Origin: an uncultured Selenomonadales bacterium
Lineage (GTDB): Bacteria > Bacillota > Negativicutes > Acidaminococcales > Acidaminococcaceae
Assembly: GCA_900315805.1 (NCBI GenBank)
Contig: ONAN01000003.1
Location: 1-64,000 of the forward strand
Length of the DNA stretch: 64,000 nucleotides
Reading direction: 5' to 3'
Shown here: piece by piece, positions 29,977 to 49,954 of the stretch
Position numbering within the stretch: position 1 is the first letter of the stretch
Layout of the letters: the number at the start of each line of letters is the position of its first letter
Made by a program: the position numbers and the translations under genes
The notes under the pieces: model-generated
Database searches by the model: none
Told to the model about the DNA's origin: nothing
What the model saw: the letters and a program-made list of their open reading frames with translations, nothing else

Positions 29977-30017
29977 AGTATGATTTCGTACTATAGCATA
30001 GTATGAAATCGTACTAT
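29977..30017 (-). promoter_or_regulatory. Duplicated operator and promoter of the reverse-strand MarR-MATE unit
   Basis: Two 18-base sites, AGTATGATTTCGTACTAT (29977-29994) and AGTATGAAATCGTACTAT (30000-30017), start 23 bases apart and differ at two positions; each is nearly palindromic. The reverse-strand promoter, TTGACA (30018-30023) and TATGCT (29995-30000) with 17-base spacing, has one site between its boxes and the other just downstream. This is a textbook repressor layout. Confidence 0.8.
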
Positions 30018-30029
30018 TGTCAAAATAGT

Positions 30030-30070
30030 ATAGCATGCTATTGACTTATTTTCCGTTCGCATGCTATTAT
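30030..30070 (+). promoter_or_regulatory. Promoter and operator of the forward-strand MarR-MATE unit
   Basis: TTGACT (30041-30046) and TATTAT (30065-30070) with 18-base spacing. The perfect palindrome ATAGCATGCTAT (30030-30041) abuts the -35 box, and the element GCATGCTATT recurs at 30033-30042 and 30059-30068, overlapping both promoter boxes. Confidence 0.75.
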
Positions 30071-48449: not shown

Positions 48450-48462
48450 GGAGGAACATTCC

Positions 48463-49110
48463 ATGTTAGAGAATTACGAAAAAGCCATGGGCGAGCTGCA
48501 TGACCGCATGTCCGTTTTGAGCATGAAGCTGGAAAAAGCCATGGAAGATACCTGGTACGCCCTGGAAAACAAGGACCTGGCGCTGGCGGACAAGGTGTAC
48601 CGCGGCGACCAGGACATCAACGACCTGGTGCGCGAATGCATGCAGAAGGACCTGTCCATCAGCATGCTCCATGACCCGGTGGCCCGGGACTGGCGCTACC
48701 TGATGGCGACCATGAAGATCCTTTCCGATATGGAGCGCATCGGCGACCACTGCGCCGATATCTGCCATTACCTGATCCGCATGGAGAACCGGCACCACAA
48801 TCTGCCCCTGCTGCCCGGCCTGAAGGAAATGTACGGCGTCATGTCGTCCATGGTCAGCGACGTGCTGACCTTCTACAACAACCAGGAGAAAACCGACGTG
48901 GAGCTCATGAAGGACAAGGACGACATCGTCGACCTGGCCTTCGACAACCTGATGGAGGAAATCAGCAAGCAGATTGCCGAACATCCCGAATACGCCCGCG
49001 ACTACATGTCCTATGTGTTGATTGTGAAGTATGTGGAGCGCATGGCCGACCACGCCAGCAACATCGCGGACTGCATCATCTACCGCGACACGAGCCGCAT
49101 CATCGTCTGA
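48463..49110 (+). CDS. phoU: Phosphate signalling protein PhoU
   Basis: A 215-residue helical protein with two PhoU repeats, each carrying a metal-binding E/D-x3-D motif: ERIGDHCADI near residues 87-96 and ERMADHASNIADCI near 190-203. PhoU damps PhoR signalling when phosphate is plentiful and restrains PstSCAB. GAGGAG precedes the ATG at 48463. It ends the pst operon. Confidence 0.95.
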   Translation: MLENYEKAMGELHDRMSVLSMKLEKAMEDTWYALENKDLALADKVYRGDQDINDLVRECMQKDLSISMLHDPVARDWRYLMATMKILSDMERIGDHCADICHYLIRMENRHHNLPLLPGLKEMYGVMSSMVSDVLTFYNNQEKTDVELMKDKDDIVDLAFDNLMEEISKQIAEHPEYARDYMSYVLIVKYVERMADHASNIADCIIYRDTSRIIV

Positions 49111-49183
49111 CGGGCCGTATACGTCCGGCGTTTTTGACACGCTGTCCCCGGGCTCACAGAGCCTGATCTGTTTCCATTGCAAA

Positions 49184-49212
49184 TTGTGTTTTGCGTTGCT
49201 TTCCGTTATAAT
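49184..49212 (+). promoter_or_regulatory. Promoter of the Hrb-like gene
   Basis: TTGTGT (49184-49189) and a perfect TATAAT (49207-49212) with 17-base spacing. Transcription should begin at about 49219, right at the base of the folded leader. Confidence 0.7.
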
Positions 49213-49284
49213 GAAGAAGAACGGAACTCCCCGCGCGGGGAGCGGCAAGGCCTTTGCCGCGGTTCCGTCCTTCTTTCTTTTTTT
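49213..49284 (+). ncRNA. Structured 5' leader (three-way junction) upstream of the Hrb-like gene
   Basis: Outer stem ACGGAAC (49221-49227) with GTTCCGT (49262-49268), extendable outward by about 8 pairs with one mismatch; inner hairpin TCCCC-GCGC-GGGGA (49228-49241); second inner hairpin GCGGCAA-GGCCT-TTGCCGC (49242-49260). Almost no base at the junction is unpaired. A T-rich run (49278-49284) follows, so it may act as a terminator or attenuator. It does not match the FMN riboswitch pattern. Confidence 0.6.
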
Positions 49285-49312
49285 ATTTCATTGCAATGAC
49301 GGGAGGAACAAA

Positions 49313-49954
49313 ATGGATACAAGCGCCCTGTTCAAGATTTCCTACGGCCTGTTCGTGCTGACGGCGAAGGGAAAGGACGGCCGGGAAAGCGGCTGCATCA
49401 TCAATACGGCCATGCAGGTGACGAGCAATCCGCTCCAGGTCTGCTTTACGGTCAACAAGGCCAACTATACCCATGATTTGGTGCTGGAAAGCGGCAGCTT
49501 CACGCTGTCCGTGCTGTCGGAAAAGGCATCCTTCGACACCTTTAAACGCTTCGGGTTCCAGTCGGGCCGCGACGTGGACAAGTTTGCCGGGTTCGAAGAC
49601 AGTTTCCGGCGCGGCGCCAACGGCCTGCCGTATATCACGGCCGGCACGAACGCCTGGATTTCCGGCGAAGTGGTGCAGCACTACGATGTGGGAACCCACC
49701 ACCTGTTCGTGGCCAGGGTGACGGATATGGCCGTCCTCGATGACAAGACGCCGTCCGCCACCTACACGTACTATCAGGAACACATCAAGCCGAAACCGCA
49801 GTCTGCGCCCAAGCCCGGTGCCAAAACGAAGACCGTCTGGCGCTGCCGCATCTGCGGGTATATTTACGAAGGGGAAACGCTGACCCCGGATTTCGTCTGC
49901 CCCATCTGCAAGCACGGCGCTTCCGATTTCGAGAAGGTCGAAGTGGAAGCCTGA
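49313..49954 (+). CDS. Flavin reductase-rubredoxin fusion (Hrb-like)
   Basis: A 213-residue two-domain redox protein. Residues about 1-150 form an FMN-binding flavin reductase domain (SYGLFVLTAKGKDGRESGCIINTAMQVTSNP...), and residues about 168-210 form a rubredoxin domain with two C-x2-C pairs (CRICGYIYEG and CPICKHGASDFEKV). The same fusion is the high-molecular-weight rubredoxin (Hrb) of Moorella, which passes electrons to flavodiiron proteins that remove nitric oxide and oxygen. That role is likely here by family. GGGAGGAAC precedes the ATG at 49313. Confidence 0.92.
   Translation: MDTSALFKISYGLFVLTAKGKDGRESGCIINTAMQVTSNPLQVCFTVNKANYTHDLVLESGSFTLSVLSEKASFDTFKRFGFQSGRDVDKFAGFEDSFRRGANGLPYITAGTNAWISGEVVQHYDVGTHHLFVARVTDMAVLDDKTPSATYTYYQEHIKPKPQSAPKPGAKTKTVWRCRICGYIYEGETLTPDFVCPICKHGASDFEKVEVEA

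Follow-up and report, generated by a model that had tools for sequence, protein, structure and literature searches.

What does the compact RNA structure do that is predicted between phoU and a gene for an Hrb-like flavin reductase-rubredoxin in an uncultured Selenomonadales bacterium? The initial annotation had read it as a cis-acting switch or attenuator of a nitric-oxide/oxygen defence gene. Its surroundings were analysed in a window of 64,000 nt (the whole stretch of DNA studied; contig ONAN01000003.1, positions 1 to 64,000), to which all coordinates refer. The element is best explained as an intrinsic terminator with which the promoter of hrb overlaps, a reading given about an even chance of being right.

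Genomic setting and fold of the element

The hrb gene (49313-49954, plus strand; 213 aa) encodes a Flavin_Reduct domain (PF01613, 2e-34) at residues 8-159 and a rubredoxin-like domain (PF21349, 9e-12) at residues 176-207, the domain order of Hrb, in agreement with the earlier assignment of an Hrb-like gene behind the structure. Upstream on the same strand are the pst ABC genes and phoU (48457-49110; PF01895, 8e-32), the last gene of the pst-phoU cluster; two weak terminator-like hairpins follow phoU directly (49111-49127 and 49149-49165, plus strand, within 49111-49165), and positions 49104-49150 are no more stable than shuffled sequences. A TonB-dependent receptor gene lies downstream of hrb in convergent orientation. 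Hrb has been described as a partner of FprA in Moorella thermoacetica (Silaghi-Dumitrescu 2003, as cited in PMC12288474); a single protein of the present genome, a 408-aa open frame on another contig of which the ODP part alone was scored, exceeded the cut-off for the flavodiiron ODP domain and is compatible with such a partnership, without showing it.

The three-way junction occupies 49213-49276 of the plus strand and is present as first described, with two inner hairpins, a 7-bp outer stem, and a T run. The predicted structure of 49213-49284 is (((((((.((((((((((((....)))))(((((((.....))))))).))))))).)))))))........ with a minimum free energy of -36.3 kcal/mol; shuffles of the same dinucleotide make-up average -24.0 kcal/mol (sd 2.8), giving z -4.37, and 0 of 200 were as stable. 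The outer stem (49221-49227/49262-49268, ACGGAAC/GTTCCGT) encloses hairpin 1 (49228-49241) and hairpin 2 (49242-49260), all plus strand; beyond one A.C mismatch, a lower stem (49213-49219/49270-49276, GAAGAAG/CTTCTTT) adds 7 bp. The full stem abuts the U-tract CTTTTTTT (49277-49284, plus strand), which is followed by the ribosome site and then by hrb at 49313.

Across both strands of the window, 221 of 21,310 sampled 72-nt windows fold at least as well, the sampling being every 6 nt, so that these windows overlap heavily. After correction for GC content the fold is about 3.7 sd out. Owing to a G.U pair in place of the A.C mismatch, the minus strand folds a little better (-39.6), and it is through this strand (-4.5) that the locus ranks fifth in the GC-corrected list of the window. 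Pairing alone therefore cannot tell which strand is relevant; on the minus strand the stem is trailed by ATTATAAC, with no U run. Several others of the strongest structures in the window are plain terminator hairpins, for instance that separating hrb from the TonB receptor gene. Also among the strongest composition-corrected folds is a long AT-rich, near-perfect inverted repeat at 29977-30048 (AGTATGATTTCGTACTATAGCATAGTATGAAATCGTACTA), with a second palindrome after it. The junction sequence is present in a single copy in the genome, which rules out a dispersed repeat.

Likely promoter overlap and the predicted transcripts

A likely sigma-70-type promoter of hrb lies at 49184-49212 (plus strand), with -35 TTGTGT (49184-49189), a 17-nt spacer, and -10 TATAAT (49207-49212). 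Of the 'strong promoter' proposed earlier, the -10 box stands, being perfect; the -35 box is weak (3/6 consensus matches), and the pair was not listed by a promoter scan requiring 4/6 in the -35. From the usual spacing to the -10 box, transcription is predicted to start at about 49219-49220, which places the lower-stem 5' arm GAAGAAG (49213-49219, plus strand) downstream of the -10 box but ahead of this start. With a start near 49219 this arm is therefore outside the gene's own RNA, save possibly for its last base. The extension of the outer stem to about 15 bp, as first proposed, is seen in the fold, with 7 further pairs beyond the mismatch, but would fall outside the transcript of hrb itself, in which only the 7-bp stem and the two hairpins would be present, without the lower stem.

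The two RNAs differ in what follows the stem. With a U-tract looked for within about 2 nt, the full stem is trailed by CTTTTTTT and the 7-bp stem by only CCTTCTTT; the T-score of the U-tract is 3.28 from the full stem versus 1.37 from the 7-bp stem, and the shortened leader folds at -28.4 kcal/mol versus -36.3 for the full stem. Taken together, these two differences make it most likely that read-through from upstream terminates and that local RNA escapes at least partly. In RNA reading through from pst-phoU, the entire stem (14 bp with one mismatch and two inner hairpins) would stand flush against CUUUUUUU and should terminate, insulating hrb from phosphate-regulated transcription. RNA from the TATAAT box would begin at about 49219, within the 5' arm and lacking the lower stem, and the base of its hairpin would be trailed by CCUUCUUU rather than by a clean U run; it is expected to read through, at least partly, with the junction then serving as a stable 5' cap. 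Against this stand the weak hairpins after phoU, beside which another terminator may be redundant; the U run, which lies close enough to the shortened stem that the gene's own transcript may terminate too; and the weak -35, with which the start site could lie elsewhere.

If the promoter does start inside the 5' arm of the terminator, the layout would be a compact way of insulating a newly placed gene from the upstream operon while its own transcript is kept, and a simple test case for such arrangements; otherwise the short intergenic region simply contains a terminator of the routine sort. The predicted start at the base of the outer stem would also suit a junction that merely shields hrb mRNA from decay, with the U-rich segment as a spacer; that passive role seems rather improbable, as it leaves unexplained why the untranscribed GAAGAAG arm pairs almost perfectly and why the U run is flush with it.

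Resemblance to attenuators, terminators, and ribosome-site occlusion

Regulated attenuation, in which most hrb transcripts would end at the U run as a leader RNA of about 65 nt, with a protein or ligand (such as a redox or NO signal) raising read-through, is possible, if unlikely. The order of promoter, structure, U run, ribosome site, and gene speaks for it, as do the -28.4 kcal/mol retained by the short leader and the constraint in two species described below. No antiterminator exclusive with the junction was found in the 94-nt leader that hrb's own transcript would carry, however, and these first 94 nt fold into the unchanged junction; once 60 nt of coding sequence are added to the leader, the predicted fold allows the outer stem to pair with coding sequence instead. 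Rfam gave no match at the gathering threshold or at E values up to 5, which rejects an FMN riboswitch or any other Rfam family, as the initial annotation had expected. The switch that it proposed is unsupported: no antiterminator could be found, nor a ligand pocket or a conserved core.

With leader attenuators and transcriptional riboswitches the element shares a terminator-like hairpin between promoter and start codon; it differs from them in having no antiterminator, conserved aptamer core, or Rfam match, and in its narrow distribution. With Rho-independent terminators it shares a stable GC-rich stem (z -4.4) directly before CTTTTTTT and a strong T-score with the full stem, but it is branched, with two inner hairpins instead of a single one, and is overlapped by promoter-like sequence. 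No close precedent turned up in searches of the literature on promoter-terminator overlap and three-way-junction leaders. To a specialist the element would look like a common type of terminator or leader hairpin, of mild interest for its overlap with a promoter, the switch reading being unproven.

The Shine-Dalgarno sequence GGGAGG (approximately 49303-49308, plus strand) is predicted to be covered by a CCUUCUUUC tract, a pairing predicted in both species that carry the element. Its opening cost of 6.95 kcal/mol is the third highest among 21 sites in the window and not exceptional; occlusion of the ribosome site as the main function was rejected, the cost being within the range of other genes. 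In long RNA the predicted pairing of the site is strong, with opening costs of 10.2 and 8.7 kcal/mol. Occlusion of the ribosome site in long read-through mRNAs is the type represented by the phage T4 lysozyme gene e. The present site resembles it in being predicted more tightly paired in the long than in the short RNA, and differs in that the short RNA is predicted to cover the site too, with a value unexceptional in the window. A TCATTGCAATGA palindrome near 49290 was rejected as an operator, being destroyed in the congener.

Distribution and probable sequence constraint

A covariance model of the element (R1) found it in only 2 of 380 Negativicutes genomes, here and in one congener (G004, contig ONEW01000017.1), where it occupies the same site between phoU and hrb, folds at -31.5 kcal/mol, and likewise has TATAAT immediately 5' of the stem. 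The leader is identical at 68 of 71 positions (96%) and the promoter segment 49184-49213 at 29 of 30, compared with 62 of 72 and 72 of 85 in the intergenic flanks; at their third codon positions phoU and hrb are 81% identical. Promoter and leader together (97/101) are more conserved than the flanks (134/157; p 0.006) and the third codon positions (348/434; p 3e-5), and are probably under constraint between the two species, in keeping with a terminator and an overlapping promoter. All three leader substitutions fall in hairpin 1, where one gives a G.U pair, one breaks the innermost pair, and one lies in the loop; this distribution gives no sign of a conserved ligand core and further weakens regulated attenuation. 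None is compensatory, which counts against the terminator-promoter reading, though two sequences offer no proof of the fold either way. The lack of conservation or covariation among relatives, named at the outset as evidence against a switch, was thus found in part.

That the element is only the terminator of pst-phoU, with a coincidental TATAAT and with hrb depending on read-through or a different promoter, is likewise doubtful. The full stem is canonical, phoU is on the same strand, and the -35 is weak; yet the segment from -35 to -10 is nearly invariant, the ribosome site would be strongly paired in the long RNA, and in a third congener (G009), whose phoU is 92% identical, hrb is absent, another gene stands right after phoU, and the element is lacking there. 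An inherited phoU terminator was rejected on this last ground. Highly improbable is a lineage-specific attenuator combining both ideas, where terminator formation depends on which start site is used, a promoter within the 5' arm frees local transcripts while upstream ones stop, and a redox or NO signal tunes read-through.

Alignment of regions upstream of hrb-like genes had been suggested initially; among 79 further homologues of hrb from public genomes, mostly titled Lachnospiraceae or other Clostridia, no comparable structure before a U run was found, which rejects a leader common to hrb genes and is a further point against regulated attenuation. A high-identity match to hrb (92%) was found in only 1 of 13 congeners searched, and the next-best homologues (L034-L113; about 55-70%) come chiefly from genomes with Lachnospiraceae or other Clostridia in their titles, a pattern suggestive of horizontal transfer of hrb into the lineage.

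Beyond the two copies, the matches of R1 across the 380 genomes were all weak, scoring about 30 bits or less, and a wider RNA family was rejected. Nearly all of these (L120, L121, L122, L124, L125, and L126) form a plain hairpin, in most cases trailed by T-rich sequence, in line with a terminator; L123 is a poorly folding stretch within reading frames. At L120, in another Negativicutes genome (reverse strand, about 1501-1552), a promoter-like TATAAT, a long hairpin, and TTTATTTTTTT precede the ribosome site of a gene, a layout that resembles the promoter-terminator-gene order here without sequence kinship.
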